From contig JACVZY010000028.1 of the NCBI GenBank assembly GCA_014654705.1, positions 1-64,000 on the forward strand: 64,000 nucleotides of DNA, in the 5' to 3' direction. Of this stretch, positions 10,356-46,432 are shown piece after piece. The position numbers were made by a program, and so were the translations under genes. The notes below the pieces were generated by a model that was not told the origin of the DNA, searched no databases, and saw nothing but the letters and a program-made list of their open reading frames with translations. Each line of letters begins with the position of its first letter. Positions within the stretch are counted from its first letter, which is position 1. Source of the DNA: Ignavibacteria bacterium (GTDB lineage: Bacteria > Bacteroidota > Ignavibacteria > Kapaibacteriales > UBA4661).

Positions 10356-10433
10356 AGAAATAAAAAAAAGAGTGAGAAAGCACTCTCGGACAGCATAGAA
10401 GCAACCCAAAAACCTTCGGAGCGAAGATTTTTT

Positions 10434-12120: not shown

Positions 12121-12138
12121 TGCCTTCATGGTAAAAAA

Positions 12139-12171
12139 GGCTTCAAACCTACAATGTTTGAAGCCTTTTTT
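12139..12171. terminator. Bidirectional terminator at the left end of B
   Basis: GGCTTCAAAC and GTTTGAAGCC form a perfect stem, with T6 on one side and A6 on the other. It stands between the core and the YqaJ gene. The equivalent at the B/C junction is 41501-41530. It ends the YqaJ operon and insulates the junction. Confidence 0.85.
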
Positions 12172-12176
12172 GTTTT

Positions 12177-12198
12177 CGTCCTTTTCACGTCCTAAACT
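12177..12198 (+). repeat. Arm-type repeat, element B left (CGT allele)
   Basis: CGTCCT, two bases, then TCACGTCCTAAACT. The same 22-bp site with 20 matches lies at 41366-41387 at the end of the B integrase gene. It overlaps the 3' end of the YqaJ gene. Confidence 0.7.
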
Positions 12199-12767: not shown

Positions 12768-12840
12768 AATTTTGAAAAATAATACGCCCGCTTGCCAAAC
12801 GAATTATCGTGGCTTACGGGCGCGGTTGATAGTGTACGGA

Positions 12841-13305: not shown

Positions 13306-13381
13306 TGTTTTTGCTCCTTTCTTGAACCACAAAAAGCCGCTCCGAAACAGATTCAAAGCGGCTTTCGTGCTTATGGTATGC

Positions 13382-13930
13382 TTAGTAAAGCGGTTTGACT
13401 TCATAAATTTTTGCTTTACCAATTTCTACTTTGATGCTTTCGGTGTACTTGATTTCAACAGGCGTACCGCTCGGAATATGCTCAAACTGTTTGCGGAGTG
13501 TAACACCTGCATTTATCCATACTTGCTTCTGATTGTCAATCCATGTAACGCCGATAATTTCTTTGCGCTCGTCGCCTTTGCCTTTGACAATCGTTTTTTC
13601 TCCCAGATACACACCGCGTACAGTCTCACCTTCGGTGGTAAATTCTTTGTATTTGGCATTCATTGAAACACCGCTTTGCATCGTTTCCAAGCGGGAAAGA
13701 GCCGATTCCATTGCAAGAAGTTTTTCGGCGGAAATCAGCACTGGTGCGGTAGCAAGTTCAGTTTCCTTTTCCACGCCGTGAGAATCTATGCTGTTTATGG
13801 GCTGTTCAACACCCATTTCCAGAATTTCCCCTGTTGCGGTATTTACAGCCGTGTTATTTACAAGTGCTACATCTTCGGAAACCGGAGAAACGATTGTTTC
13901 TTTAGCGAGTTTTTGAGTTTTGGTATTCAT
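13382..13930 (-). CDS. Conserved element protein, possible ssDNA-binding/annealing partner
   Basis: 182 residues from ATG 13930. A polar, low-complexity N-terminal half is followed by a beta-rich C-terminal half (GVYLGEKTIVKGKG, VTWIDNQKQVWINAG, VEIKYTESIKVE) resembling an OB-type barrel. It belongs to the YqaJ operon, so a single-strand binding or annealing role is plausible. No family was recognised. The homologue in C is 42729-43268, very similar in the C-terminal half. Confidence 0.6.
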   Translation of the reverse strand: MNTKTQKLAKETIVSPVSEDVALVNNTAVNTATGEILEMGVEQPINSIDSHGVEKETELATAPVLISAEKLLAMESALSRLETMQSGVSMNAKYKEFTTEGETVRGVYLGEKTIVKGKGDERKEIIGVTWIDNQKQVWINAGVTLRKQFEHIPSGTPVEIKYTESIKVEIGKAKIYEVKPLY

Positions 13931-14007
13931 GGAAATTTGTCCTTGATAAAAGCCGCTTGCACTTGATGACAAGCGGCTTGTGAGTAAATTTTTCGAGTAA
14001 TAAAGAA

Positions 14008-14229
14008 TTAGCACGGAAACTGCGTCAGCCCTGCAATAAGCGACGCGGCTTCATCAACGGAACACAACAGCAGCGAGCAAAGATGCCGACAATGATAGTC
14101 ATTGCTGGCGGTACAAGGCGTAAGCACCGATACTTCACACTTGCCCACTTTGCCGACGCAGGAAAAATAGAGCGACACCGTAAAGCCGTCGCGCCGTGCG
14201 GCGTTGATAGCCGAAAGAAGTTCAGGCAT
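14008..14229 (-). CDS. Small Cys/His-containing element protein
   Basis: 73 residues from ATG 14229, chosen because the homologue in C (43341-43550, 69 residues) starts at the equivalent Met. It overlaps the end of the upstream gene by 8 bases. The two copies share the framework (AARRDGF, C-terminal FPC) but diverge in the middle, where this one is Cys-rich. Function unknown. Confidence 0.55.
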   Translation of the reverse strand: MPELLSAINAARRDGFTVSLYFSCVGKVGKCEVSVLTPCTASNDYHCRHLCSLLLCSVDEAASLIAGLTQFPC

Positions 14230-14590
14230 TGCACACCTCCCACACTCTATCGTCCATTTCACGCGCCATATTGTTGTAATCAGGTTCAGGATTCATAAAG
14301 CCCTCATCACTACCAAAACTCAAAAAATCGCTGTCATTGTACAAGTACATAAACCATTCTTGCACGTCAGAACAAAATTTCATCACAAACGCCATCTTCA
14401 CGCGGTCGCCCGATTTCCAAAATTCTTTCATCGTGCGAATGCTCTCAAGAGCGTTGTGTAATACTTGTTCGCGCTCAATCTGCGCGAGTTCCTCCGTAGT
14501 CGGAAGGAACGGTATTTCAGGCATTGCGCCGATGCCGTGCGGTTCTTCTTGCATAGCTTTGTCAAGAAGTATATTTTTGAGGTAGCTCAT
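14222..14590 (-). CDS. Conserved acidic element protein, unknown
   Basis: 122 residues, acidic and helical (EELAQIEREQVLHNALESIR, FCSDVQEWFMYLYNDSDFLS). Conserved in C (43560-43925) except for the C-terminal ~20 residues. It is part of the YqaJ operon. No family recognised. Confidence 0.6.
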   Translation of the reverse strand: MSYLKNILLDKAMQEEPHGIGAMPEIPFLPTTEELAQIEREQVLHNALESIRTMKEFWKSGDRVKMAFVMKFCSDVQEWFMYLYNDSDFLSFGSDEGFMNPEPDYNNMAREMDDRVWEVCNA

Positions 14591-14658
14591 ATCGTTATGC
14601 TAATAAAATGTGAGTAAAAATCGGGCTTTCAATGTCACAACCATTGAAAGCCCTTGTT

Positions 14659-15153
14659 TTATACGGGCAACGTGATTGCCAGCGAGGATTTGCTTTCGGA
14701 AATAACAGGCGGAAAAACTTCTACGCCTTCTTCGGTAACAGGCAGCACCAATTTTTTCAAGAACTCTTCCCGTGCTTTGAGCAGTGATTTTGTGCGCTCC
14801 ACTTCTGCCACAAGTTGCGTGTGCTTCGCATCACGGGAAAAATCCCATTCGCTTTCCAAGCGCACGGAAAACTTTACGCCTGTTTCGGTGGCGTGGATGC
14901 CGTTTGTGCGTTGGCTTTCGGCATAAGCAAGCGCCCGCATCATAATCGCGGCTTTGAGGATTTTCAAATACTCTTCTGTGGCTTTGATGGCAACCAGAAG
15001 CGCAAACTTATCGCTATCAGTGCGGATAAAGCCCGCATAATTACTGGCAAGTTCAGCAAGCGCGGACTTATTGAGCGGAATAGAGCGCAAGGGCAAAAGT
15101 TCGGAGACTTTCGCCGTTTTGCGGCGTACATCTGATTTTGCAATGGGTTTCAT
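14659..15153 (-). CDS. Conserved element protein, first gene of the YqaJ operon
   Basis: 164 residues from ATG 15153, which has a good ribosome-binding site (AGGAAAA, 8 bases upstream). A basic N-terminus (RRKTAKVSELLPLR) is followed by a helical body with a coiled-coil-like segment before a conserved tail (PVTEEGVEVFPPV). The homologue in C is 44002-44496. The long upstream frame is not conserved. Function unknown. Confidence 0.6.
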   Translation of the reverse strand: MKPIAKSDVRRKTAKVSELLPLRSIPLNKSALAELASNYAGFIRTDSDKFALLVAIKATEEYLKILKAAIMMRALAYAESQRTNGIHATETGVKFSVRLESEWDFSRDAKHTQLVAEVERTKSLLKAREEFLKKLVLPVTEEGVEVFPPVISESKSSLAITLPV

Positions 15154-15394
15154 AGCATTTTCCTTTCGGAAGAAGTGAACAAAAAAAGTGTGTGTGCTTC
15201 TCTCGCACCGTTGGGGCTGTGCAACGTAAACGCTTGAACGAGAGAAACAATAAATTGTCAAAGAACATCCTTTGCCACTACCGAGCGGAGAGCGCACGGC
15301 GCGGCGAGGGGCTGCGCTCTTGCGCTACGCGGGGACGAAACGAGCGAGGCAGGAGCGAGAGTAGCTCCCCAAGCGATTTCCCAAAAAACCGCCG
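15154..15394. other. GC-rich leader region between YqaJ operon and adenine-free genes
   Basis: 241 bases without a gene. The stretch around 15280-15365 is very GC-rich, with repeated GAGCG/GCGAG-type words (CGGAGAGCGCACGGCGCGG, ACGAGCGAGGCAGGAGCGAG). Nearly the same words occur in C at 44625-44705. Related words recur in the GC block after the ribbon-helix-helix gene (17114-17191). It may be an mRNA leader, an origin or a transfer site. Confidence 0.4.
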
Positions 15395-15943
15395 CTAAAA
15401 CAGCGACGGCGAAGGAGACAGCAAAAACCACCCCGCACCAAGAGCAACAAAGCCCCACGCAGGAACGCCAAGCGGCGCAAACACCAACAACGGCACACCC
15501 AAGCCCGCAGCAAACGCCGCCGAAGCCCACGAACCAGAACCAAACCCCGCGAAACACGCCGACACAACGGGCGACGGCGCAAGACCACGAGGACACACCG
15601 ACGACGGAAACACCACCACAAGCGACGGAGCACGACCAGAACCCGCCCGCACCACCGCAGCCGAACGCAGCGCCAGACGCGCCGACCACGACGAAGCGGA
15701 AAACGAGGCAGCACGGAACACACACGCACCCTCAAGCCCGGAGCGCACCGCAGCATCAACGCCGGAAGCACAGCCCACCGCAACAAAGGCACGAGACGAG
15801 ACCAACGCCAACACAGGCGCAAGCACGGGCGGCACAACCGAGCGCGAACCCGAAAACGCCAAAGAACGCGCCCCCGCCACAAGAGCGGCAACGGACGGGG
15901 GCAACACAGAACCAACAGCAGGAGCGAAAGAAGAAGCAACCAC
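15395..15943 (-). CDS. Adenine-free SLOG/DprA-like Rossmann protein
   Basis: 182 residues from GTG 15943, preceded by GAGGGG. The fold signature is LAFSGSRS (P-loop-like GSR), VAVGCASGVDAAVR, VFPSSVCPRG and GSGSWASAAFAAGLGVPLLVF, as in SLOG/DprA/LOG-type nucleotide-binding proteins. The coding strand has almost no adenine, so the protein is built from F, L, S, C, W, P, R, V, A and G. The exceptions are Asp63 of the GVD motif and Glu71. The frame was chosen by motif and by conservation with 44732-45277, since all six frames are open here. Confidence 0.7.
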   Translation of the reverse strand: MVASSFAPAVGSVLPPSVAALVAGARSLAFSGSRSVVPPVLAPVLALVSSRAFVAVGCASGVDAAVRSGLEGACVFRAASFSASSWSARLALRSAAVVRAGSGRAPSLVVVFPSSVCPRGLAPSPVVSACFAGFGSGSWASAAFAAGLGVPLLVFAPLGVPAWGFVALGAGWFLLSPSPSLF

Positions 15944-15953
15944 AGCGCACCCC

Positions 15954-16328
15954 TCAAGAAAAAGTAGGAGAAGAAACGACACGACGACGAGCCGCCGACA
16001 AACGCCCCAACCACGCAGCCGGAGCAAGCGCAACGCCCACAGGCGCAGGAACACCCGAAGGCAAAACCGCAGGAACAGAAACCGACCAGACAGCACCCGC
16101 ACGACGCACCACACAAAACAGCCCAACAAACCGCGCAGCCCGCACCGAAAACGCCCGCGCCGCACCAAACGACGAAAACGAACACTCCGCAACAAAACCC
16201 GACACCGAGCGCACCGACAAACGGAACGAAACGGAAGAACAACCACGCCCAACCAACCAAGCGGAAAGCGAAAACACCGACGGAGCGCGAAGAACGCGAG
16301 AGCCAAAAGGAAAAGAAGAAGAGAGCAT
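15954..16328 (-). CDS. Adenine-free small gene upstream of the SLOG-like gene
   Basis: 124 residues from ATG 16328 to TGA 15954, ending 10 bases before the GTG of the SLOG-like gene. Nearly the same protein is encoded in C (45288-45662), with the same start and a different stop codon. Rich in S, V, F, R and A; no recognisable domain (FSLSAWLVGRGCSSVSFRLS). Three sense-strand adenines lie in 15957-16320: one Thr codon, one Glu codon, and the next only at the start region. Real coding is likely but not proven. Confidence 0.55.
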   Translation of the reverse strand: MLSSSFPFGSRVLRAPSVFSLSAWLVGRGCSSVSFRLSVRSVSGFVAECSFSSFGAARAFSVRAARFVGLFCVVRRAGAVWSVSVPAVLPSGVPAPVGVALAPAAWLGRLSAARRRVVSSPTFS

Positions 16329-16374
16329 AAAAACACCTACAAAAAGAAGTGAAAGAAGAACGAACTGAACACTA

Positions 16375-16405
16375 CAAAGATACGAGAAAGCGCAAAGAAA
16401 AGCAA
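16375..16405 (-). promoter_or_regulatory. Bacteroidota-type promoter of the adenine-free pair
   Basis: On the minus strand TTG (16405-16403), 20 bases, then TATCTTTG (16382-16375), the TAnnTTTG -7 element. It lies ~50 bases before the ATG at 16328. The same arrangement and spacing is present in C at 45709-45739. Confidence 0.75.
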
Positions 16406-16499
16406 GAAAAAAAATACAAAATAGAAAAATAAAAAATACAAAAATACTTGTACACAACCCCAGAAAAAACAAACACACGCACTCCACACTCTGCACCAC

Positions 16500-16765
16500 A
16501 CACCTAACAACAAATGCCATGCTGCCGCAGGCGAAGGCGATAGCAAGCAGCCCCAATACAATCTTTGCCGATGCTTGGGCAGCGCAGCCGCCGAAACAAT
16601 ATGCCGAGCCGCCCGACGCACAACAAGAGCAAGGCACGACGACCGAACAAGATGCAAGGGCGGAGGCTTTGCGACGTGCATTTTACCCTTGCATCTTTTT
16701 TCGGCGACGTGCTATTTTGCCCATGCGGAGGGTGTGCCTTCCTGCCCGGATAGGGCAAAATGAAC
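16500..16765. other. Structured conserved region before the RHH gene
   Basis: A conserved plus-strand frame runs 16519-16770 (83 residues; 84 in C at 45855-46109), but it also spans strong hairpins. GATGCAAGGG and CCCTTGCATC (about 16650-16698) are followed by T6. ATTTTGCCC and GGGCAAAAT enclose a smaller stem at about 16714-16762. The protein-level similarity may simply follow RNA or DNA structure. A regulatory RNA, an origin or a small protein are all possible. Confidence 0.4.
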
Positions 16766-16868
16766 AATAATGCCGATGATTTTGTTTGCAATGATTTGTA
16801 GTGTATATTTGCCGATTATGTAATCAACAAAGATTCCTTTTTACCGACAACAAATCAAGGCATTTCGT

Positions 16869-17093
16869 ATGGCAAAATTAGGTCGGAAACCTCGTTCGGA
16901 AGATGGATCGGTTCGTGTGGTAACGGTTCGTTTAACCGAAGAAGAATTTGCACGATTAACCAAGGAATCGGAAGAGGTAGGCTTGGGCATTTCCCAACTG
17001 ATGCGGTCGCGGTCATTGGACACGCCGGAGACAATCGCCCAAAAGTATCAGGAATTGAAAGAAGCGGTCGCAATGGTTTTGGCAAAGTTTTAG
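16869..17093 (+). CDS. Ribbon-helix-helix DNA-binding protein (MobC/CopG-like)
   Basis: 74 residues. The ribbon is VRVVTVRLTEEEFARLTKES, followed by two helices with GLGISQLMRSRSL. This is the size and pattern of relaxosome accessory or plasmid-copy regulators. It is the last backbone gene before the cargo, next to a GC-rich hairpin block. The homologue in C is 46208-46432. No relaxase was seen, so mobilisation in trans is only a possibility. Confidence 0.75.
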   Translation: MAKLGRKPRSEDGSVRVVTVRLTEEEFARLTKESEEVGLGISQLMRSRSLDTPETIAQKYQELKEAVAMVLAKF

Positions 17094-36627: not shown

Positions 36628-37344
36628 CTACGGATTCACCTTCAACAACTGCGGATTCACCAAATTAAACTTCTGCTGATTCTGTACCTCCTCCACCGCA
36701 AAATCTATCACCCGCGCTATCTCGCCCATTGCCTGATTAAAGGTTGCGTCGCGTTGCGCTGTCCACTCTTCGTTCGATAACGCACGAGTGCGGTATTGCA
36801 AGGAAAACGTCGGGTCGGCTGTGGCGGCTGCGACGAGTTCACGGCATTTGTTCGCGGCTTGCGCCATCGAAAGTGCTTGTGTGCTGATGAAATCTATATC
36901 CCACACCCGATACGTTCCGCCCGCCGATTTTTGGATGCCGTTCAGCTTCGTGAAGTCACGGATGAGATATTGTGCCGTGCGGCGCTGCGGGATGTATCCG
37001 TTTTGTGCCGGAGCCGCATCAGAAAAAATCGTTTCGCCAAAGCCGAATTGTTTATTTCCCGCATCCAGATACACGCCTTGTAGCATATTTGTTCCTGTTG
37101 GATAAGCGCTACTGTCAATGTACGACGCGCCCGAATACGTGTTCGGTGTGGCGGGAGACGTAACTTGCGTGAGCGGAATTTCTCGCGTGTCGAGTAATTG
37201 TGCGGGATTCACGCCGTCAAAACGGAAGAATCGTACACGAAAACGAAACGGTGGTGTAAATGTACCACCAGCGTTTGTGTAGGTGATGTTTGCATCGGCA
37301 GCGTCGCGCCGGAGCAACATGACGAAATTTTCTACGATTGCCAT
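36628..37344 (-). CDS. Constant-variable element protein (B copy)
   Basis: 238 residues. The C-terminal ~115 residues match the element A protein (245-958). The N-terminal half (LLRRDAADANITYTNAGGTF and on) is unrelated to it. It overlaps the DnaA-like gene by 13 bases. The switch from unrelated to nearly identical sequence occurs near residue 122, just before YLIRDFTK. Confidence 0.7.
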   Translation of the reverse strand: MAIVENFVMLLRRDAADANITYTNAGGTFTPPFRFRVRFFRFDGVNPAQLLDTREIPLTQVTSPATPNTYSGASYIDSSAYPTGTNMLQGVYLDAGNKQFGFGETIFSDAAPAQNGYIPQRRTAQYLIRDFTKLNGIQKSAGGTYRVWDIDFISTQALSMAQAANKCRELVAAATADPTFSLQYRTRALSNEEWTAQRDATFNQAMGEIARVIDFAVEEVQNQQKFNLVNPQLLKVNP

Positions 37345-37613
37345 TGGGTTATGTCCTTCAGTTGGTGAAAAAGATGTTGATATGCGGTGTCGGTGATGAA
37401 TAAACTTTGATGCGTCTGCACAAAGTGAACAACGGTGCTGTGCGGGCGACAGAGTTCGGAAGCAATCTCGCGCACGGAATACCCTTGTTCGATAAGAATT
37501 GCCGAAAGCGCACGGCGAATATCCACCAGACGGCGGGCGCGTGATTTCGCTTTCAAACGCCGCTCCAAATCAGGGATATTGAGTGTTTGCGCTATTTTTG
37601 GGTAGTCTAACAT
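37332..37613 (-). CDS. Stand-alone DnaA domain IV-like protein (B copy)
   Basis: 93 residues, nearly identical to 955-1239 except at the C-terminus. Contains GYSVREIASELCRPHSTVVH. It confirms the ATG choice for the element A gene, where the frame extends further upstream. Confidence 0.75.
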   Translation of the reverse strand: MLDYPKIAQTLNIPDLERRLKAKSRARRLVDIRRALSAILIEQGYSVREIASELCRPHSTVVHFVQTHQSLFITDTAYQHLFHQLKDITQWQS

Positions 37614-37688
37614 TGCCTTTTGATGAAAAATCGCTTACAACGCCTGTAAATGCGAAATAACGAATCCGCGTTTTGTAAGTACAGTAGT

Positions 37689-37711
37689 GAGCGGAATACT
37701 CGCTTCCGCTC
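37689..37711. other. Hairpin in the DnaA-like/winged-helix gap (B copy)
   Basis: GAGCGGAA and TTCCGCTC with a 7-base loop, at the same place as the hairpin at 1315-1337. The surrounding gap (37614-37795) has no gene. The phrase GCCTGTAAATGCG beside the DnaA-like gene is shared with A. Confidence 0.5.
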
Positions 37712-37795
37712 GTGGTTTGGTTCAGCCGCTCCATGCCGCTCTAACAGCCTAAAAAGGGTATTTTTTGGGTGCTTGAGCAACATTTTCGGTCATTT

Positions 37796-38116
37796 TCAGC
37801 GAAGAATCTGGTACAAATTATAGTGATTGCGCCGTTCCCATCGGATGCAGCCTTTGGTGCGAAGCCCCATGAGCAGCGACCGCGCAAAGCGGAGCGAACA
37901 GCCGTAGTGTTCAGCAATGGTGCGCTGTTGCAGTCTGCACTCCCCTTCTGCGGTAGCATAAGTGGCAAGAATGAGGTACATCGCTTTTTCGGCGTTGGTC
38001 AAATTTGCATCGAGGGCGACGGAGGAAGCGATCGTTGCCACGTCCTTTGGTCGTGTCGTGAGTTTCGTCAGCTTCACCGCCTTCGGCGGCTTGATTTTAC
38101 GCGGTGTTTGGGGCAT
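37796..38116 (-). CDS. Winged-helix (HTH_36-like) protein (B copy)
   Basis: 106 residues, a few longer than the element A copy at the N-terminus. The HTH core NAEKAMYLILATYATAEG and RTIAEHYGCS is conserved. It overlaps the DUF4373 gene end by 20 bases. Confidence 0.7.
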   Translation of the reverse strand: MPQTPRKIKPPKAVKLTKLTTRPKDVATIASSVALDANLTNAEKAMYLILATYATAEGECRLQQRTIAEHYGCSLRFARSLLMGLRTKGCIRWERRNHYNLYQILR

Positions 38117-39056
38117 TGGCTTTCTTCAACAGTTGATATTCATCGTAACTCAAGATGCTTTTTTCGCGCAAGTGTTCAGCGCGAGTGAAATCCAGCGACT
38201 CAAGAAGAACGTGCGGATTGATGCCGCCTTCGGGCATTTCAACTGACACATAACGGCGTGTCGGCTGGTAGCCTTGGCTTGCCGTTCTCACGGGAAACTT
38301 CATGTCGTCGGTCGGACGCGCAAGAGCGCGGAAATCCGCTTCCACACTGAACTTCAGGATTTTACGCGGGTCGTAGCCGTTTGCAAAATGTTCCAGAAGC
38401 GTTTCCAACTGCGACCGCGCCGCGCCCATGCTTGGCTTTCGTTCGCTTTCCCACTTTTCCCATTCCTGAGCAAAACCCTTCAATACCTTCAAAGCCTCCG
38501 GTATTTCCATCGAGTTTGCGGGGGTGGGTGGGTGGGTTTTTCTACTCTGCTCTCCTCTACTGTACTCTCCTCTACTCTGCTCGTTTGTAGCGGTGTTGTT
38601 TGATGAGTGTGCTGGTTGCGTGGCGGGTACAAGTTCGGATGTAACCGTTACATCGTCGTTATGTACTCCGTTATCCTGCATCTTGCCCTTTTTACTTTGG
38701 CGATACTTGCGAACCTTTTCCGCGTTCCGCGCCCGCTTTTCGTACATCGGTGCGAGACGTTGCACCAAACCCTTGCTGAAAAGCCAACCATCTTGCACGA
38801 AAAACGCCGCCACTTCGGGGCGTGTTGCTTCTTCGATGAAGGATTGAAACAGAACACGATCACAACCGAACTTCCGTGCATACACCCCGCATTGAAAGTC
38901 ATTCCATTGGATACGATTATCGTTTGCACGAGACAGTACCTCCAGCATTTTGTTGAAAAGCGCGTAGCCCACAAGTCCAAACTGCGATTCGAGATAAATC
39001 ACCTTTTCATCGGCGGACATATCCGCATCGTGTTTGAACCATTCTGCTCCGTTCAT
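38097..39056 (-). CDS. DUF4373 replication-associated protein (B copy)
   Basis: 319 residues. The DUF4373 domain is almost unchanged from the A copy (1701-2645). The linker after the KYRQSKK segment is expanded by a few residues, and the C-terminal third is conserved (LLEHFANGYDPRKILKFSVE). Coupled by ATGA to the upstream HTH gene. Confidence 0.8.
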   Translation of the reverse strand: MNGAEWFKHDADMSADEKVIYLESQFGLVGYALFNKMLEVLSRANDNRIQWNDFQCGVYARKFGCDRVLFQSFIEEATRPEVAAFFVQDGWLFSKGLVQRLAPMYEKRARNAEKVRKYRQSKKGKMQDNGVHNDDVTVTSELVPATQPAHSSNNTATNEQSRGEYSRGEQSRKTHPPTPANSMEIPEALKVLKGFAQEWEKWESERKPSMGAARSQLETLLEHFANGYDPRKILKFSVEADFRALARPTDDMKFPVRTASQGYQPTRRYVSVEMPEGGINPHVLLESLDFTRAEHLREKSILSYDEYQLLKKANAPNTA

Positions 39057-39322
39057 ACTTGCTCAAAAAAATGCCGAAAAATACTTTGAAAGTCCTTGCT
39101 TGCGTGGATTGGTCGGGCTTGCCTTTGTGCGGGATTATGCGTTTTGGTAGCTTGTTCGCGGGAGAAGAGCGCGGCACGTTCATAATCTTCCATTCGGAAA
39201 TACTCACGCGAACCGTTGTATTGAAACGGTGTAAGTAGTCCACGAGACCGCAGCGAATAGACCACTTTGTAGCCAACGCCGAGGGCGCGGGCGAGTTGCG
39301 GTATGGTGTAGAGCTTACTCAC
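39053..39322 (-). CDS. MerR/excisionase-type HTH protein (B copy)
   Basis: 89 residues, differing from 2642-2911 at only a few positions. Keeps YTIPQLARALGVGYKVVYSL. Starts 2 bases after the stop of the upstream HTH gene, whereas in A the gap is 12 bases. Confidence 0.7.
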   Translation of the reverse strand: MSKLYTIPQLARALGVGYKVVYSLRSRGLLTPFQYNGSREYFRMEDYERAALFSREQATKTHNPAQRQARPIHASKDFQSIFRHFFEQV

Positions 39323-39324
39323 TT

Positions 39325-39540
39325 TTACGCACGTGGAGTACCGTTGATGCCAAACACTTTTGCAATCTCCGCTTCCTGTTCTTGTATCTCGCGCTCAATC
39401 TCGGCAGCAATTTTCATCGCTTCCAACTCTCGGCGGGCGATACGCTGTTGTGCTGTCTGATATTTGATACCAAGCCGTTCGGCAACCTTTTTTATCGTGC
39501 CATGCCGGAGGCGGATATGAGATAAATGTGGATTTTGCAT
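39325..39540 (-). CDS. Small HTH protein (B copy)
   Basis: 71 residues, nearly identical to 2924-3139 (GTIKKVAERLGIKYQTAQQR). First gene of the leftward early operon of B. Confidence 0.65.
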   Translation of the reverse strand: MQNPHLSHIRLRHGTIKKVAERLGIKYQTAQQRIARRELEAMKIAAEIEREIQEQEAEIAKVFGINGTPRA

Positions 39541-39625
39541 TGTTGTTTTGTCATACTTTTATTATGTTACAGTAATAATACAAGGCAAATATAATAAAAT
39601 TAGCACAAAAAGCAATAATTTTAGC
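39541..39625. promoter_or_regulatory. Divergent promoter/operator (B copy)
   Basis: An 85-base AT-rich gap with TTAGCACAAA and TTAGCATGAA spaced as in A. The second repeat runs into the repressor start codon. Small differences from the A operators might give the two repressors different specificities. Confidence 0.5.
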
Positions 39626-39991
39626 ATGAATAATCGTGAAGAAATACTTGCGCGGCTTCAACACTGGGTGTTTGAGGAGCAACGCTGGACGAAAGCGGAG
39701 TTTGCACGGCGCACAGGTATTGCTCCGCAGAACGTCAATAAGTATCTGTCGGGAGAATTGAACATTGAGAACTTGTACATGGCTCTGCAAGATGCGGGTT
39801 GCGATATTCATTGGCTCAAAACTGGCGAACGCGCCACACCTGACGTGGAAATGATGAAGATTCTGAAGGATGCCGGCATTGACACACCCGATAAGCTGAA
39901 AGACTTTCTTAAAGTCGAGAGCGTGGTTGAGGATATTGCGGCGATTGCTACCAAGCTGGCTTCCTATCAACGTCGAAAGCCCCGACGTTAA
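39626..39991 (+). CDS. XRE-family repressor (B copy)
   Basis: 121 residues from ATG 39626, matching the start of the A repressor; the longer upstream frame is not conserved. HTH: KAEFARRTGIAPQNVNKYLS. Given its near identity to the A repressor, cross-immunity between the tandem elements is likely (inference). Confidence 0.8.
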   Translation: MNNREEILARLQHWVFEEQRWTKAEFARRTGIAPQNVNKYLSGELNIENLYMALQDAGCDIHWLKTGERATPDVEMMKILKDAGIDTPDKLKDFLKVESVVEDIAAIATKLASYQRRKPRR

Positions 39992-40265
39992 TGTGGTTGC
40001 GATTATCGTTGCAGATGTCCGTAGCACGTCGGCAACGAATGACCGTGCAAACTATGGTGTACGTTTTGTACTGCTCGTGTTCACAGTGTGCATGATACTT
40101 GCTCTCTTTTGGCAGCGTGAATCAACGACAGAAGTGATCGAAGCACGACAATTTTTGCTTCGAGACAGTAACGGTACAATTCGTGCGGGTTTGGTGATGG
40201 AGCAGAACGAGCCAGTATTATTTTTTGCCGACACAAACGGCAAACGAATTTCAGAGTACAAATAA
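39927..40265 (+). CDS. Small single-pass membrane protein (B copy)
   Basis: Up to 112 residues overlapping the repressor. A start at GTG 39993, right after the repressor stop, is plausible here. Transmembrane segment VRFVLLVFTVCMILALFW, then EARQFLLRDSNGTIRAGL. The membrane segment differs from A while the C-terminal motif is conserved, so the soluble motif is what matters. Confidence 0.6.
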   Translation: MRILRRLLPSWLPINVESPDVNVVAIIVADVRSTSATNDRANYGVRFVLLVFTVCMILALFWQRESTTEVIEARQFLLRDSNGTIRAGLVMEQNEPVLFFADTNGKRISEYK

Positions 40266-40280
40266 CGGAGACAAGTATTT

Positions 40281-41384
40281 ATGCCTCGCCCACGCCGTGA
40301 AGATAGATGGACGCATCCGTTGTACAACATCGGCTTTTGCCGTGAGCGCGACGGCATGGTTCATACGGAAATCAAGGGACAACGGTTTGCGACGGGGTTA
40401 GTCTGGCATGACAAGAACAAAAAACTTGCACTGCAAATTCTTGAGCAGCGTATCATGGCGTATTTGAATCCCACACCTCAGCAATCGGACGCACCCAAAC
40501 TCCACACCACAAACAGCGCATTTGAATTATTTGCACAACAACAATTTCCAACGCGCTCGAAGAGCTACCTTTACAACTGGAAGCAAGCTGTCGAGGTCTT
40601 GTTACCGTCAAATATTCTTATCACTGCGACGGAAGAAATTCGCAGTTACATGATTGAACGGTTGGCGAAATCCCATCTTCACGCCAACACCAAACGCCAG
40701 CACCTCGCGTGTATGCAGCAATTTTTCGAGTATTGCATTGATGAGCATTATTGTTCGCGCAGTCCTGTGAAAAAGTCCATGTATCCGAAAAAGGTGAAAC
40801 AAGATGTGAAGCCGTTCACGCTGGAAGAGTACGAGCGTATTGTGAAATATTTCGAGACCAAACCACCTTCGGCAAAAGCACGATTGGATAAGAACAGAGA
40901 CAAGAAGCAGTTCGTGTTACTCTTGAAATTTGTCGGTACAACAGCAGTACGCATCAATGAGGTGTTAGGTATTCATTGGTCGGATATTAGCGAGGACTAC
41001 ATTTTGATTCACGGCAAGGGCGCACGAGATAGGAAATTCCCACTGAAATCTTTCCCCGAAGTGCACGAGATTGTACGGCAGTGCGAGGAATACCGCGAAA
41101 CGAACAAAGAAAAGTTGTTTGTGTGGACAAGTTATGCGAAATTAGAACTGTGGATTCGTCAGGCATTGGAGGCGTTAGAAATTCCGGGTGACGGGCGAAA
41201 TTTTCACAGCATTCGCAAGATGCGTGAAAATTATTGGATAAAGCAAGAGCGATTGCCTTCGGATGTTGTTGCTGCGATTGTCGGACACACAACCCGCGTC
41301 CAAAGTGAACACTATTTGCAAGCGTTGGAAATTCAGGAAATGGACGCAATTATTTCGCATTCTCGCGTCCTAATCACGTCCTAA
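40281..41384 (+). CDS. int: Tyrosine recombinase (integrase of element B)
   Basis: 367 residues. Catalytic residues in TTAVRINEVLG, HSIRKMRENY, VGHTTR and SEHYLQ. It is a close relative of the integrase at 3897, with clear divergence in the N-terminal ~120 residues. It ends in the CGT-allele arm repeat, 97 bases before the core at 41481. Confidence 0.9.
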   Translation: MPRPRREDRWTHPLYNIGFCRERDGMVHTEIKGQRFATGLVWHDKNKKLALQILEQRIMAYLNPTPQQSDAPKLHTTNSAFELFAQQQFPTRSKSYLYNWKQAVEVLLPSNILITATEEIRSYMIERLAKSHLHANTKRQHLACMQQFFEYCIDEHYCSRSPVKKSMYPKKVKQDVKPFTLEEYERIVKYFETKPPSAKARLDKNRDKKQFVLLLKFVGTTAVRINEVLGIHWSDISEDYILIHGKGARDRKFPLKSFPEVHEIVRQCEEYRETNKEKLFVWTSYAKLELWIRQALEALEIPGDGRNFHSIRKMRENYWIKQERLPSDVVAAIVGHTTRVQSEHYLQALEIQEMDAIISHSRVLITS

Positions 41385-41387
41385 ACT
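41366..41387 (+). repeat. Arm-type repeat, element B right (CGT allele)
   Basis: CGTCCT, AA, then TCACGTCCTAAACT, overlapping the integrase 3' end. It matches the arm at 12177-12198 at 20 of 22 positions, linking the two ends of B. Confidence 0.7.
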
Positions 41388-41480
41388 CCCGTTAAATAGC
41401 AGCATCAATGAGCAATCTAATCAAACATACTTTTCAGAAATCATGCAGCATTGAAGGCAGGCAAAATGTGGCTGTTTCAC

Positions 41481-41493
41481 CCACCTTCTGCAC
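41481..41493 (+). repeat. Attachment core (B/C junction)
   Basis: CCACCTTCTGCAC in a 154-base spacer between the arm at 41366-41387 and the arm at 41542-41560. There is no insertion at this junction, so it serves as the reference for locating Z at the A/B junction. Confidence 0.8.
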
Positions 41494-41500
41494 ATAAAAC

Positions 41501-41530
41501 GGCTTGAAACTTAATGTTTCAAGCCTTTTT
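41501..41530. terminator. Terminator at the left end of C
   Basis: GGCTTGAAAC, TTAAT, GTTTCAAGCC, then T5. It is the counterpart of 12139-12171, with the stem sequence changed but pairing preserved. Confidence 0.85.
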
Positions 41531-41541
41531 GTTTTGAAATG

Positions 41542-41560
41542 CCTAATCAATACCTAAACT
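41542..41560 (+). repeat. Arm-type repeat, element C left (ATA allele)
   Basis: CCTAATCAATACCTAAACT, identical over 19 bases to 5000-5018 of element A and different from both B arms. It overlaps the 3' end of the YqaJ gene of C. Confidence 0.7.
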
Positions 41561-42129
41561 TTTCCCGACCTTCCTACTTTTCCTCCTATTTTCTCCCAAA
41601 ATGCCTGTGCCGTGTCTTTCATGCGTTCAATAAGCTCTTCATCACGCACAATCGGCTGCACGTGCAGTTTCCATCCTTGCTCAAGAGCGCAAATATAGCC
41701 AAACTTCATGCCCAAAACGAACAAGTACCACTGAACCTGATACGCAGCCATAGTGCGCTTGTCTTTCGACCAATACGCAGCATTTTTGATTTCCAATACT
41801 GCGTGAGCTTCACTGCTGCCAACAGATAACAAGCGGTCGGGCGTAGCAAGAAAAATGCCGCCGCGTTTGTACAAACGCTTGGGATTGAGAATAGTAAACT
41901 CCGGCTTCAAACGTTTGAACTCGCGCACAGTAAAGGCTTCAATGCGTTTGCCGATGCGCATTTGTTCGGTTTCGGGTGTTTCGTAGCCTTCGACTTTGGA
42001 GCGGTACACGTCCTCTGCCGTGGCGAATGGGTTTACGCCCATCAGCGCGGCAATATCGCTGCCTCCGATGCCGCTTCGTCTCGCCTCTCGCCAGCGTTTT
42101 TGCGAAGTGATGTTGATTTCTTCCAGCAT
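41554..42129 (-). CDS. YqaJ-type exonuclease (C copy)
   Basis: 191 residues from ATG 42129. Same motifs as 12192-12767 (GIGGSDIAALMG, LATPDRLL, AVLEIKNA). Differences are scattered and conservative. Confidence 0.85.
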   Translation of the reverse strand: MLEEINITSQKRWREARRSGIGGSDIAALMGVNPFATAEDVYRSKVEGYETPETEQMRIGKRIEAFTVREFKRLKPEFTILNPKRLYKRGGIFLATPDRLLSVGSSEAHAVLEIKNAAYWSKDKRTMAAYQVQWYLFVLGMKFGYICALEQGWKLHVQPIVRDEELIERMKDTAQAFWEKIGGKVGRSGKV

Positions 42130-42195
42130 AGTTTTGAAAAAAAATGCGCCCGCTCCGATGGTTATCAAAGCGGGCTTTGTTTTTGAAATGGTGAC

Positions 42196-42654
42196 TTAAT
42201 GCAGCACACGTGCTGCGGGCGATACTTTTTCGCTACCGTATTTTTTGCGGATGTCGTTGATGTCGTGCGCCTCGCCACGTGTGCGCGTTGCGTATTCCAG
42301 CGCCCGATAAAACCATAACTTTTTCACAGGCGCAAAACAAAAGCCTTCGCGCTTGAGCGCTTCGCGGTGCGCGTAGGTGTTGCCACCAACCCACAGCCAT
42401 TTGCCGATGATTTCCAGTTCCAAGCCGTCCAAGTGGGCAATCGCCGCAATTTTGTCGCGGTAGAGAAGTTCGCTTGCTTCGGCTTCCGTGCTGAAATCGC
42501 CGTGCATCACGCGCCGAAGCACGGCTTGATACTCGGCGTTGAGTGCCTTCATGTCTTCATCATTACCGCCTACGTCGGGATGCAGTTTTTTGCACCATGC
42601 GTGGTACGCGCGTTTGAGGTCGTCGAGGGTGTGAATATTTTCAAAGTAGCGCAT
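42196..42654 (-). CDS. J-domain protein (C copy)
   Basis: 152 residues from ATG 42654. HPD in KKLHPDVGGNDEDMKAL. Two residues shorter than the B copy near the C-terminus. Confidence 0.8.
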   Translation of the reverse strand: MRYFENIHTLDDLKRAYHAWCKKLHPDVGGNDEDMKALNAEYQAVLRRVMHGDFSTEAEASELLYRDKIAAIAHLDGLELEIIGKWLWVGGNTYAHREALKREGFCFAPVKKLWFYRALEYATRTRGEAHDINDIRKKYGSEKVSPAARVLH

Positions 42655-42728
42655 TATTTTTTTCCTTTCTTGAAACACAAAAAGCCGCTCCGAAATAGAT
42701 TCAAAGCGGCTTCTGCGTTCAGATATGC

Positions 42729-43268
42729 TTAGTAAAGCGGTTTAACTTCATAAATTTTTGCTTTACCAATCTCTACTTTAATGCTTTCGGTGTAGGTGAT
42801 TTCGACAGGCGTACCGATTGGAATATGTTCAAACTGTTTGCGGAGCGTCACCCCCGCATTTATCCAGACTTGTTTGCTGTTGTCTATCCACGTAACCCCG
42901 ATAATTTCTTTACGGTCGTCGCCTTTGCCTTTGACGATGGTTTTTTCGCCCAGATACACACCGCGCACGGTCTCGCCTTCGGTGGTAAATTCTTTGTATT
43001 TGGCATTGAGCGACACGCCGCTTTGCATCGTGTCCAAGCGGGAAAGTGCGGATTCCATTGCCTGAAACTTTTCGACGGGAATCAGTACCGGAGCGGCGGC
43101 AAGTTCAGTTTCTTTCTCCACACCCAAGGAATCAACACTGTTGATAGGCTGTTCAGCGCCCATTTCCAACACTTCACCGGTGGCAGTGTTCACGAGGTCG
43201 TTGTTTACGAGGGCTACATTGTCAGAAACAATCGTTTCTTTTGCGATTTTTTGAGCTTTGGTATTCAT
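42729..43268 (-). CDS. Possible ssDNA-binding/annealing protein (C copy)
   Basis: 179 residues from ATG 43268. The beta-rich C-terminal half is nearly identical to 13382-13930. The N-terminal polar half has small deletions. Same place in the YqaJ operon. Confidence 0.6.
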   Translation of the reverse strand: MNTKAQKIAKETIVSDNVALVNNDLVNTATGEVLEMGAEQPINSVDSLGVEKETELAAAPVLIPVEKFQAMESALSRLDTMQSGVSLNAKYKEFTTEGETVRGVYLGEKTIVKGKGDDRKEIIGVTWIDNSKQVWINAGVTLRKQFEHIPIGTPVEITYTESIKVEIGKAKIYEVKPLY

Positions 43269-43340
43269 GGTAAAGATCCTTAATGAAAAGCCGCTTGCAC
43301 AAGATAACAAGCGGCTTGTGAGAAAAAGTGAGTGATACAT

Positions 43341-43550
43341 TTAGCACGGAAAATCCGTGAGCTTCGCAATACGCCGAGCGGCTTCTTTTGCCGTCATAGT
43401 GCGATATTCACAGGCTATCATCGAAGAATGATGATGCACCGAAAATGAGGCAATATGCGGCTCTGCATCGTGAGAGTGCTGCCAGACTTGAAAGCTGCAC
43501 GAAAAGCCCTCCCGTGCAGCAAGCGCAATGGTTTCTAAGAGTTGTTTCAT
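43341..43550 (-). CDS. Small element protein (C copy)
   Basis: 69 residues. The frame of 14008-14229 is kept (AAREGF, C-terminal FPC), but the central part is His-rich (HSHDAEPH, VHHHSS) instead of Cys-rich. The exchange of one set of potential metal ligands for another is notable. Function unknown. Confidence 0.55.
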   Translation of the reverse strand: MKQLLETIALAAREGFSCSFQVWQHSHDAEPHIASFSVHHHSSMIACEYRTMTAKEAARRIAKLTDFPC

Positions 43551-43559
43551 GGTTGTCTC

Positions 43560-43925
43560 CTAAAAACATAAGTCATAATCAGCATCTTCACGGCGGCGTA
43601 CTTCATTATCCCAATCAGGTTCAGGACTACCAAAATTTTCATCACTACCAAAACTCAAAAAATCACTGTCGTAGTACAAGTAATTGAGCCACTCTTGTAC
43701 ATCCGAACAAAATTTCATGGCAAATGCCATCTTCACGCGGTCGCCGGATTTCCAAAATTCTTTCATCAGGCGAATACCTTCCAACGCAACATTTAATGCC
43801 TGTTCACGCTCAACTTGCGCGAGTTCTTCAGCACTCGGCAAAAATGGAACATTGGGCATTGTACCAAAGCCATGCGGTTCTTCTTGCATAGCTCGGTCAA
43901 GAACGATATTTTTGGTGTAACTCAT
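43560..43925 (-). CDS. Conserved acidic element protein (C copy)
   Basis: 121 residues, homologue of 14222-14590. FCSDVQEWLNYLYYDSDFLS is conserved. The C-terminus differs, and unlike in B it does not overlap the next gene. Confidence 0.6.
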   Translation of the reverse strand: MSYTKNIVLDRAMQEEPHGFGTMPNVPFLPSAEELAQVEREQALNVALEGIRLMKEFWKSGDRVKMAFAMKFCSDVQEWLNYLYYDSDFLSFGSDENFGSPEPDWDNEVRRREDADYDLCF

Positions 43926-44001
43926 TTTGACACCTTTAGCGGTTTAATAAGTGAGAAAAATCGGGCTTGTGAGTGGCTTCAACACTTACAAGCCCTTTGT
44001 T

Positions 44002-44496
44002 TTATGCGGGTAATGTAATCGCAAGCGACGAAGATGTTTCGGTAATAACAGGCGGAACAACTTCAACACCTTCTTCAGTGATGGGCGTAACAAGTTTTTT
44101 CAAAAACTCCTCGCGGGTTTTGAGTGCAGACTTCGTGCTTTCAAGCTGTGCCGTAAGCTGACGATGTTTGGCATCGCGGGAAAAATCCCATGAACTTTCC
44201 AAACGCAGAGAAAACTTTACACCTGTTTCGGTGGAGTGAATACCGTTTGCGCGTTGTGCTGCGGCGTATGCAAGAGCATTTGCCATGATAGCAACTTTGA
44301 GTGCTTTCAAATACTCTTCTGCGGCTTTAATGGTAACAAGCAGCGAAAATTTATCGCTATCGGTACGGACAAAACCCGCATAGTTTCGAGCGAGTTCGAC
44401 AAGTGCGGATTTATTGAGCGGAATGGAGCGCAAAGGCAACAGTTCCGCGACTTTCGCAGTTTTCCTACGGCTATCAGTTTTTGCAATGGGTTTCAT
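44002..44496 (-). CDS. First gene of the YqaJ operon (C copy)
   Basis: 164 residues, same length as the B copy (14659-15153). Starts MKPIAKTDSRRKTAKV. Conserved tail PITEEGVEVVPPV. Function unknown. Confidence 0.6.
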   Translation of the reverse strand: MKPIAKTDSRRKTAKVAELLPLRSIPLNKSALVELARNYAGFVRTDSDKFSLLVTIKAAEEYLKALKVAIMANALAYAAAQRANGIHSTETGVKFSLRLESSWDFSRDAKHRQLTAQLESTKSALKTREEFLKKLVTPITEEGVEVVPPVITETSSSLAITLPA

Positions 44497-44731
44497 AACA
44501 GTTTCCTTTCGGAAAAAGTGAACAAAAAAAGTGAGTGTACTTCCCTCGCAGCGTTGGGGCTGTGCAACGTAAACACTTGTGCGAGAGAAGCAGATGAATT
44601 TTCAAAGAACATCCTTTTGCCGCTACCGAGCGGAAAGCGCACGGCGCGGCGAGGGTCAGGCGTAGCCACGCGGGGGCGAAACGAGCGAGGCAGGAGCGAG
44701 AGTAGTCCCCCAAGCGATTTCGCCGCCCCCG

Positions 44732-45277
44732 CTAAAAAAGCGAGGGAGCAGGAGCAAGCAACCACCACCCCGCACCAAGCGAGGAAAAACCCCACGACGG
44801 CACACCAAACGGAGCAAACACCAAGAGCGGCACACCCAAGCCCGCAGCAAACGCCGCCGAAGACCACGAACCCGAACCCAAGCCACAGAAGCACACAGAG
44901 GACAAAGGCGACGGCGCAAGACCACGAGGACACACCGAAGAAGGAAAAACCACAAAAACAGAACCACCGGCACGAGAAGAAGCAGAAGCCACACACCGAA
45001 CCACAGCCGCCGACCGCAAGACCAAACGCCCCGACCACGAAGAAGCAGAGAACGAAGCCGCCGAAAACACCGCACAGCCAACAACAGAAGCCCGCACAGC
45101 CGCGTCCACACCCGAAGCACAGCCCACAGCCACAAACGCACGGGGAGAAACAGCCGAACACACCGAAGCAAGACACAACGGAACAACCGAGCGAGAGCCG
45201 GAGAAGCCCACCGCACCCGCCCCACCCACAAGGGCGAGGACGGACGCAGGAACAGAAGCGAAAGAGGAAGCAACCAC
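44732..45277 (-). CDS. Adenine-free SLOG/DprA-like protein (C copy)
   Basis: 181 residues from GTG 45277 with an AGGGGG site. VGFSGSRSV, VAVGCASGVDAAVR, VFPSSVCPRG, GSGSWSSAAFAAGLGVPLLVF. The body of the gene has a single adenine on the coding strand, in the codon of Asp58 of the GVD motif; every other residue comes from codons without A. This frame conserves the protein relative to the B copy. The other open frames in this region are artefacts of the composition. Confidence 0.7.
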   Translation of the reverse strand: MVASSFASVPASVLALVGGAGAVGFSGSRSVVPLCLASVCSAVSPRAFVAVGCASGVDAAVRASVVGCAVFSAASFSASSWSGRLVLRSAAVVRCVASASSRAGGSVFVVFPSSVCPRGLAPSPLSSVCFCGLGSGSWSSAAFAAGLGVPLLVFAPFGVPSWGFSSLGAGWWLLAPAPSLF

Positions 45278-45287
45278 AGCACACCCC

Positions 45288-45662
45288 CTACAAAACAGAA
45301 GAAGAAAGAACACCACGACGACGAGCCGCCGACAACAAGCCCAACCACGCAGCAGGAGCAAGCGCAGAACCAAAGGGAACAGCCACACCCGAAGGAACAA
45401 CGGCAGGAACGGAAACCAACCACGAAGAGCCAACACGACGCACCACACAGAACAAGCCGACAAACCGCGCCGCACGAGAAGCAAACGCACGAGCCGCGCC
45501 AAACGACGAGAACGAACACACCGCCACAAAACCCGACACCGACCGCACCGACAAACGAAACGAAACAGAAGAACAACCACGACCGACCAACCAACCCGAA
45601 AGCGAGAACAACGACGGAGCGCGAAGAACACGCGAGCCAAAAGGAAAAGAGGAAGAAAGCAT
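45288..45662 (-). CDS. Adenine-free small gene (C copy)
   Basis: 124 residues from ATG 45662 to TAG 45288. Between 44761 and 45660 its stop codon holds one of only two coding-strand adenines. Same start and length as the B copy (15954-16328). No recognised domain. Confidence 0.55.
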   Translation of the reverse strand: MLSSSFPFGSRVLRAPSLFSLSGWLVGRGCSSVSFRLSVRSVSGFVAVCSFSSFGAARAFASRAARFVGLFCVVRRVGSSWLVSVPAVVPSGVAVPFGSALAPAAWLGLLSAARRRGVLSSSVL

Positions 45663-45708
45663 AAAAACACCTACAAAAAGAAGTGAAAGAAGAACGAACT
45701 GAACACTA

Positions 45709-45739
45709 CAAAGATACAAGAAAACGCAACAAAAAGCAA
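45709..45739 (-). promoter_or_regulatory. Bacteroidota-type promoter of the adenine-free pair (C copy)
   Basis: Minus strand TTG (45739-45737), 20 bases, TATCTTTG (45716-45709), as in B at 16375-16405. The upstream A/T-tract region (plus strand nearly T-free) is conserved as well. Confidence 0.75.
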
Positions 45740-45844
45740 GAAAAAAAATACAAAAAAGAAAAATAAAAAATACAAAAACACTTGCACACAACCCCAGAAA
45801 AAACAAACACACGCACTCCACATCCGCCACACCACACACAGAGA

Positions 45845-46105
45845 ACAATAAGCCATGCTGCCGCAGGCGAAGGCGAAAGCAAGCAGCGAAAGAACAATCT
45901 TTTGCCGACAAGGAAACGCCGCGCAGCCGCCGAAACATTATGCCGAGCCGACCGACGCACAACAAAAGCAAGGCACGACGACCGAAAAAGATGCAAGGGC
46001 GGAGGCTTTGCGACGTTTATTATACCCTTGCTTCTTTTTTCGGCGACGTGCTATTTTGTTCAAGCGGAGGGCGTGCCTTCCCGCCCAGATAGGGCAAAAT
46101 GAACA
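45845..46105. other. Structured conserved region before the RHH gene (C copy)
   Basis: Counterpart of 16500-16765. The GATGCAAGGG/CCCTTGCTTC stem has one mismatch here and keeps T6. The outer ATTTTGTTC/GGGCAAAAT stem is weakened. The plus-strand frame 45855-46109 (84 residues) stays open and similar, which slightly favours coding. Unresolved. Confidence 0.4.
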
Positions 46106-46207
46106 ATAATGCCGATGATTTTGTTTGTTGTAATTTGTAGTGTATATTTGCCGATTATGTAATTAACAATGATTCCTTTTTACCAATAGCAAATTAAGGT
46201 GTTTTGT

Positions 46208-46432
46208 ATGGCAAAATTAGGCAGGAAACCTCGTTCGGAAGATGGGTCGGTTCGTGTGGTAACTGTTCGCTTAACCGAAGAAGAATTTGCACGATTAACA
46301 AAAGAATCGGAAGAAGCAGGCTTGGGCATTTCCCAACTGATGCGGGCGCGGTCGTTGGAAACACCTGACGTTATCAATCACAAGTATCAGGAATTGAAAG
46401 AGGCGGTTGCTATGGTCTTGGCAAAGTTTTAA
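46208..46432 (+). CDS. Ribbon-helix-helix protein (C copy)
   Basis: 74 residues, nearly identical to 16869-17093 (VRVVTVRLTEEEFARLTKES). The few changes are in the second helix and C-terminus. Confidence 0.75.
   Translation: MAKLGRKPRSEDGSVRVVTVRLTEEEFARLTKESEEAGLGISQLMRARSLETPDVINHKYQELKEAVAMVLAKF

Follow-up and report, generated by a model that had tools for sequence, protein, structure and literature searches.

Why should protein-coding DNA be written almost without one of its four bases? The window analyzed here, a stretch of 64,000 nucleotides from an Ignavibacteria contig, raises this question in two places, which we call elements B and C. On the minus (coding) strand of element C, positions 44734-45661 carry A only at 45289 and 45105, with further A contributed by the gene ends (45662 in the ATG and 44733 in the final TAG). 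Plus-strand counts over 44761-45660 are 364 A, 322 C, 212 G, and 2 T, which bears out the claim of a sequence-only reading that two A occur in 900 coding-strand bases; its assignment of these to the TAG stop of the upstream gene (45289) and to the GAC codon of Asp58 (45105), correctly numbered from the GTG at 45277, was equally accurate. A second near A-free minus-strand stretch, also holding two genes, occupies 15397-16327 in element B, where the Asp codon is GAT and the upstream gene stops with TGA, as had likewise been reported.

With the window's own A frequency, the binomial probability of two or fewer A in 900 bases has a log10 of -114. Searching for A-free runs of 150 bases returned 784 overlapping matches in the window (a number that reflects run lengths), all of them within elements B and C, and none in 100 dinucleotide shuffles. 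At fourfold-degenerate third positions, 0 of 493 codons in the four genes of the two elements end in A, compared with 160 of 833 (19%) in nine neighboring genes. Because these silent positions are empty of A, the depletion is an effect on nucleotides rather than on amino acids, and an amino-acid-level cause is ruled out. The further claim that A is tolerated only where it is unavoidable holds for element C, in which a single sense codon contains A (start and stop excluded), but not for element B (four A in total in gene 1 and three in gene 2), where three A could have been avoided (the extra codons in Table 1), nor for many relatives, the A fraction of the family spanning 0.2% to 27%.

Table 1. 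Features of the two A-depleted stretches and their surroundings in the window.
Feature	Position	Strand	Remarks
Downstream gene of element C	44002..44496	-	Not A-depleted; no Pfam match; other element's copy at 14659-15153
Gene 2 of element C, A-free	44732..45277	-	Predicted DprA-like SLOG protein, 181 aa; GTG start, TAG stop; fold from element B copy
GAC codon of Asp58, GxD motif	45104..45106	-	The gene's sole A-containing sense codon
Gene 1 of element C, A-free	45288..45662	-	124 aa; ATG start, TAG stop; no Pfam match
A-poor leader of element C	45663..46012	-	4-10% A per 50 nt; bin further upstream 48% A
TATAAT box	46019..46024	-	At the 5' edge of the A-poor stretch; putative promoter, read from sequence
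Ribbon-helix-helix gene, NikA-like mobilization protein	46208..46432	+	Divergent; 33 bits, cut-off 27; copy at 16869-17093
Gene 2 of element B, A-free	15395..15943	-	Predicted SLOG protein; GTG start, TAG stop; Asp63 GAT; extra A codon E71 GAG (avoidable)
Gene 1 of element B, A-free	15954..16328	-	124 aa; ATG start, TGA stop; extra A codons E48 GAG and T122 ACT (avoidable)

By eye, window positions 245-17093 and 36628-46432 are two diverged copies of one mobile element with matching gene order (integrase-like, helix-turn-helix-like, YqaJ, DnaJ-like, and NikA-like genes), and metal-efflux-like genes follow the first copy. Pfam confirmed the YqaJ recombinase and the NikA-like gene in one element copy. 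As candidates for a toxin-antitoxin partner, the NikA/ribbon-helix-helix-like gene is present in four Kapaibacterium copies (one tested by Pfam), while pSYSX and Nostoc carry a different small gene that is convergent to the SLOG gene. Such a convergent small gene lies at 4697-5128 in locus L015, 2702-3145 in L016, and 4697-5128 in L017 (minus strand); its annotated frame enters the T-poor strand of the SLOG gene and thereby acquires a Gln/Pro/Arg/Ser-rich tail, and blastp linkage provisionally groups the frames of 10 loci with this gene.

Pfam gave no match for any of the four window proteins (genes 1 and 2 of elements B and C). Proteins similar to the gene 1 product occur in the relatives' loci L038 and L039 (A-poor), L037 (A 19%), and possibly L033. 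The gene 2 products of the two elements are 75% identical; two relatives match DNA_processg_A (PF02481) at 20.4 and 19.3 bits, below the cut-off of 29.6, and when PF02481 was compared with alignment A6, 3 of 15 members matched weakly (best E 0.0021). An AF2 model of the element B copy, made with 15 aligned sequences, has a pLDDT of 88.9. VIA-align places 4ljr as its best neighbor (Z 10.1, rmsd 3.3, 126 aligned), followed by 3maj (9.7) and 5mll (9.5); the top six rows are DprA or ShosA (Z 10.1-9.0), and the next row drops to 7.5. ShosA (8zva), the DprA-like antitoxin of the ShosTA defense system, has a Z of 9.0 (rmsd 3.5, 125 aligned). Foldseek alone returned no match to the model with E < 0.1, and a sequence search of solved structures found DprA 3uqz alone (E 0.15). 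Because the Pfam score is sub-threshold, the model confident, and the top six neighbors all DprA or ShosA with a gap thereafter, the gene 2 product is, as modeled, a DprA-like SLOG protein and not DprA proper, which binds ssDNA and loads RecA. It shares structural similarity and weak sequence matches with the DprA/SMF family (PF02481), and differs in falling below the Pfam cut-off, in having the GxD Asp as the sole invariant acidic residue of the SLOG alignment, in a C-terminal QxxL tail, and in its A-poor gene.

SLOG relatives include the N-glycosidases LOG and MilB, the latter a nucleotide N-glycosidase. MilB is among the structural neighbors of the model (Z 6.5, rmsd 4.0, 110 aligned), at a Z that may mean just a common arrangement. 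LOG-type nucleotide N-glycosidases carry the catalytic motif PGGxGTxxE, and the corresponding region here reads GSGSWAS, GSGTWGT, or similar with no conserved Glu, thus departing from the LOG type. Nine pairs of SLOG relatives gave dN/dS values of about 0.09-0.37, that is, purifying selection, from which we conclude that the gene encodes a working protein. It is hardly conceivable that the A-free frames are an ordinary low-complexity or compositional artifact with no real genes: the four window proteins without a Pfam match would fit such a view, but the dN/dS values, the pLDDT, the DprA Z score of 10.1, and relatives in two phyla speak against it, and chance and low complexity are ruled out by the shuffles, the binomial probability, and dN/dS. 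The earlier proposal of selection against A together with selection for protein function stands in its second half and in part of its first, in that a pressure against A acts on a conserved protein whose Asp is kept; that pressure may be selection or strand-biased mutation.

Relatives of the SLOG gene occur in Candidatus Kapaibacterium records, in 4 genomes (the window genome being one of them, and all four from its genus) out of 99 in its surroundings, on cyanobacterial plasmids (Synechococcus elongatus, Synechocystis, Nostoc, Microcystis, Cylindrospermopsis, and Stanieria), and on viral contigs, with 20 and 25 loci in two overlapping sets. Scanning viral sequences with one protein, P0002, gave no relative, and neither did tblastn against phage records. 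For base composition we used 44 SLOG sequences, extracted from the window and from relatives' loci (including L057, L059, L060, L072, L075, and L078) by a motif pattern that contains the Asp. L005 and L006, whose composition marks them as near-copies of L003 and L004, were left out, as were L022, which yielded no SLOG gene; the cut or over-long loci L044, L048, and L051; L069 and L076, which fall outside the pattern; and L073, whose core is that of L072, together with further viral-contig loci that repeat contigs already in the set. L034/L035 and L049/L050 are near-copies, yet they are counted in the 44; the reading frame used for L012 shifts close to the end of the gene. Further near-copies were removed for the protein tree and for the counts of leftover-A context.

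The A content is at most 1.5% in 20 of the 44 sequences, at most 5.2% in 31, and 9.6-27.1% in ten (nine at 10.9-27.1%, one at 9.6%). It lies below the level of the fetched locus in 42 of 42 SLOG genes outside the window, L019 being hardly depleted (27% A versus 32.5% in its locus). The fold as such does not demand A-freeness, since members richer in A fit the motif pattern too. A protein tree of 41 rows, flagged for composition bias, puts the changes of the A-poor state at four, at least two of them forced by well supported branches.

The GxD Asp is always among the A-containing codons of the 20 poorest sequences, a result that is partly circular because the extraction pattern required the Asp. 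In the core of winC, L049, and L050, the Asp codon is the only one with A, and L069 and L076, which lie outside the pattern, keep the Asp too (by eye). A second pattern, written for a version without Asp, had no match among the examined loci, and a homolog that had lost the Asp while staying A-free, which the sequence-only reading had named as the case against it, was not found. Of the 44 sequences, 30 (10 of the 20 most A-poor and 9 of the 10 least A-poor) carry a QxxL among their last 14 residues. This C-terminal tail may be beta-clamp-binding-like; beta-sliding-clamp-binding proteins use a QxxL[FL]-type motif. The Gln codon is CAG in the 10 most A-poor members with the tail, and Gln is replaced by Pro or Ala in the window copies and several other very poor members.

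Stop codons in 30 A-poor genes are TAG in 26, TGA in 4 (one of which, in L012, comes from the shifted frame), and TAA in none, compared with 118 TAA, 58 TAG, and 42 TGA in control frames. When codon context is ignored, 91 of 219 leftover A fall in CAG versus 14% in the control; with codon context allowed for, the excess is 34 against 20.9 expected (p 0.002, with related sequences non-independent). A strong sequence context of leftover A is thus mostly, not wholly, explained by codon context, and the Microcystis members differ in their context, which is GAT. The idea of a UV-proof template (no T on the template strand) is unsupported, as leftover A favor CAG, a CT dipyrimidine on the template.

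A second gene family shows that A is not the only base to be avoided. Upstream of the A-poor gene, a C-depleted gene is found on pSYSX (two copies), in Synechocystis B12, in Stanieria, on two Nostoc plasmids, and on the viral contigs L034/L035; it is also upstream in L038, as a fragment. C counts are 3/480 in L021, 3/504 in L054, 4/465 in L013, 4/414 in L020, 10/504 in L034, 10/492 in L022, 22/501 in L055, 39/504 in L016, and 36/498 in L017, corresponding to at most 2.1% C in six of nine loci and 4-8% in the remaining three. The product displays an HxD ... HG ... R pattern (alignment A5); in 2OG-Fe(II) oxygenases, HxD ... H ... R provides the iron and 2OG ligands. Two of the three C in each of the two poorest genes (L021, 72-551; L054, 3965-4468) and two of the four in L013 (3559-4023) lie in the codons of two presumed iron-ligand His, and both His are found in 8 of 9 loci, the L020 frame ending before the second. 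The protein shares this pattern with 2OG-Fe(II) oxygenases such as AlkB and TET/JBP, but differs from them in its C-poor gene and in Pfam scores below cut-off: PF13640 matches 3 of 5 members (best 20.6 bits, cut-off 27), PF13532 reaches 14.1 bits against 31.2, and Tet_JBP appears in one member at E 0.11. The structure model of this oxygenase-like protein was unusable (pLDDT 38), and a sequence search of solved structures gave nothing convincing.

The five oxygenase-like genes measured contain 37.5-43.4% A and the SLOG genes 22-41% C, so the partner's base is not lacking. Because the neighboring gene family is C-depleted, the rule is one base per gene and not A as such, and the earlier focus on A was too narrow. 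A need for open reading in all six frames was rejected as a goal, as it cannot explain the C-poor gene. Across 50 kb of pSYSX and the whole 44.7 kb of pIITB3_1, no 300-nt window outside these genes has less than 5% of any base. Three further annotations are recorded here as side observations. In L022, a reverse transcriptase (6025-7599; group II intron-like by eye) follows the C-poor oxygenase-like gene at the expected SLOG position; pSYSX, which carries a C-poor gene, also has a cytidine deaminase (L081, 32129-32545); and an AlkB-annotated gene in two pieces with a transposase frame between them (L018, 5216-5996) lies near a Microcystis SLOG gene, with no C-poor window around it at the threshold used.

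The cyanobacterial SLOG relatives are situated upstream of genes annotated as ArdA, zincin-like metallopeptidase (presumably ArdC-like), SSB, Rad52/ERF, or Gp157. These neighbors look like plasmid establishment genes, which is what one would expect if transcripts made early or in times of defense lacked A (or C) in order to escape base-specific weapons of the host. Base-specific attack on mRNA exists: the ADP-ribosyltransferase CmdT modifies A in GA dinucleotides of mRNA (PMC11618068, in excerpt), and mRNA of ACA-less genes, without the toxin site, survives MazF (PMC4775720, in excerpt). We nevertheless judge evasion of a foreign attack to be unlikely, the candidate weapons being mRNA ADP-ribosyltransferases such as CmdT, A- or C-specific endoribonucleases, and chain-terminating nucleotides. 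A host weapon should strike all early genes alike, yet at the thresholds used no base-poor window turned up in ArdA, SSB, or the remaining genes of the regions concerned; moreover, neighbors in the same cell avoid different bases, and the avoided base follows the gene family in two phyla.

On pSYSX the module lies upstream of a gene that by position is slr6031 (CyRepX1), which is reported to support replication (PMC10899382, in excerpt), and a NikA-like gene stands beside the window copy. Both would suit a role of the A-free or C-free strand as DNA, for instance in priming, strand transfer, or pairing, whether single-stranded or as part of a replication structure, with the protein following from it. 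We regard this as highly improbable, given that the protein is under purifying selection, that the depletion stays with particular protein families, and that it ends at terminators in L038 and L040.

How far the depletion extends was measured around 30 A-poor loci. Median A is 0 in most 30-nt bins of the coding core; after the stop, mean A is 10% in the first 30 nt and 10-20% over the first 60, and is normal beyond 60 nt. Upstream of the core motif mean A is about 8-13% for ~300 nt, and the median is 3-12% at 60-300 nt upstream, a zone that includes gene 1 in some loci. Gene 1 is itself A-poor where it lies upstream in the same transcript as the SLOG gene (window, L038). The closest fit is seen in L038, which has 53/140 A upstream of a TTGACA/TATAAT promoter (predicted from its sequence), 32/940 between the presumed transcription start and the SLOG stop (gene 1 included), 0/24 from there to a putative hairpin terminator, and 40/120 beyond; a second SLOG copy, separately promoted, has 109/561 A (about 19.4-19.5%). 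L040 has no A from the stop to a GGGGGG-TGTT-CCCCCC-T7 terminator and 29% A after it. In the four Kapaibacterium copies measured, A-poor leader sequence reaches to about 350 nt before gene 1, where window copy C has the adjoining TATAAT box. A becomes scarce ~60-75 nt ahead of the best -10 box in Synechocystis and Stanieria; when these two are taken together with Kapaibacterium, the onset precedes the nearest promoter-like site by about 60-300 nt. The C-poor stretch starts 90-120 nt before the start codon in four loci. A strict boundary at the promoter was therefore rejected, since both ends are seen in L038 only and other loci are depleted further upstream. The transcript would still be the best description of the depleted unit, short of proof. 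The adjoining SLOG copies of L038 (705-1220 and 1399-1908), one A-poor (3.5%) and the other with its own promoter, form a natural comparison.

Such a pattern could also arise by erosion, if the coding strand exposed by transcription were the repeated target of a mutator with base specificity, be it the product, a deaminase, or a reverse transcriptase, and selection saved the essential codons. Strand-specific, transcription-linked depletion with essential codons retained, and its reach upstream of some promoter-like sites, would follow from this process. It is however improbable in our estimation: the coding core, with a median of 0% A, is more depleted than the 60-300 nt upstream (3-12%) or the 60 nt after the stop (means of 10-20%), wobble T, G, and C are all used as replacement instead of one product base, and annotations of the fetched plasmid stretches show one reverse transcriptase only (that of L022).

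The products might instead act on nucleotide pools, SLOG draining adenine nucleotides and the oxygenase cytosine nucleotides, with each message makeable when its pool is empty. Depletion of the whole L038 transcript, the link of base to gene family, and the presence of MilB among the structural neighbors accord with this idea, to which we give little credence for three reasons. Translation needs ATP, which makes an A-free message of no use to a cell without ATP; drained pools would impose no context on leftover A, whereas TAG outnumbers TGA by 26 to 4 (58 to 42 in the control); and the clamp-like tail would point to DNA.

We tentatively favor, at somewhat less than even confidence, the reading that each transcript avoids the base attacked by its own product. 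The DprA-like SLOG protein of the A-poor gene would act on adenine-containing single-stranded nucleic acid, probably by removing or modifying adenine, and the 2OG-Fe(II) oxygenase-like protein of the C-poor gene would act on cytosine, probably by oxidation. Each protein would endanger the very RNA that it is translated from, or the DNA strand that transcription lays open, and the transcript would be purged of the attacked base except where function needs it. For A, these exceptions are the GxD Asp and, in many members, the Gln of the QxxL tail; for C, they are the two presumed Fe-ligand His codons. Because the two neighbors do not avoid each other's base, this action would have to be mainly in cis. 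The tail might bind the sliding clamp and so bring the SLOG protein to replicating DNA.

A product that attacks its own base is the simplest gene-tied cause, because one base per family is avoided over two phyla, because avoidance on the coding strand is strictest where it is translated, and because codons of presumed essential residues are excepted and the partner's base is kept. The link of base to gene family, the retention of these codons in both genes, the fit to the transcript in L038 and L040, and the at least two changes of the A-poor label on the tree all count in favor. Against it stand the hardly depleted L019 and the three oxygenase-like genes at 4-8% C, and strict avoidance is not always needed, since ten of the 44 SLOG sequences carry 9.6-27% A. 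Depletion upstream of promoter-like sites also counts against it, as a pure transcript model needs further promoters there. The CAG preference would fit a context-dependent enzyme, but it shrinks once codon context is considered. A clamp-binding-like tail also speaks against an action on the message, as it would point to DNA rather than RNA.

Two unrelated mobile-element gene families, one almost without A and the other almost without C, with the scarce base left mainly in codons of key residues, suggest that the message must hide from something that is letter-specific. We know of no natural genes purged of a whole base, let alone in two unrelated families and for two different bases, and a full-text search of mainly open-access journal papers listed no adenine-free, adenine-lacking, or cytosine-free genes of this kind. 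We judge the phenomenon to be new in kind. That these mobile-element genes form a hitherto undescribed class, with the missing base as the chemical target of the encoded enzyme and with a spared message that keeps yielding product while other nucleic acid is hit, is a reasonable but still doubtful prospect. Diversity-generating retroelements, which combine a reverse transcriptase with template and variable repeats, likewise involve an adenine-specific process on one strand; here, however, A is absent and not diversified, neither such repeats nor a dedicated reverse transcriptase came to notice, and the C-poor sister gene is unexplained by them. A parallel in logic is single-protein production with MazF, where the message of an ACA-less gene, devoid of the toxin target, is made while others are destroyed (PMC4775720, in excerpt). 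That system is engineered and concerns a three-base site, whereas the genes described here are natural, avoid a single base, and may themselves encode the attacker.

If each message does avoid its own product's target, the missing letter would predict the substrate of an unknown enzyme straight from sequence, which would be a new route to function, and these genes would supply ready-made messages that survive base-specific attack. The SLOG gene also illustrates that a protein can be reduced to about ten kinds of amino acid while under purifying selection. Both the SLOG and the oxygenase-like gene are present in duplicate on pSYSX of the laboratory strain Synechocystis sp. PCC 6803, which makes the question testable now.
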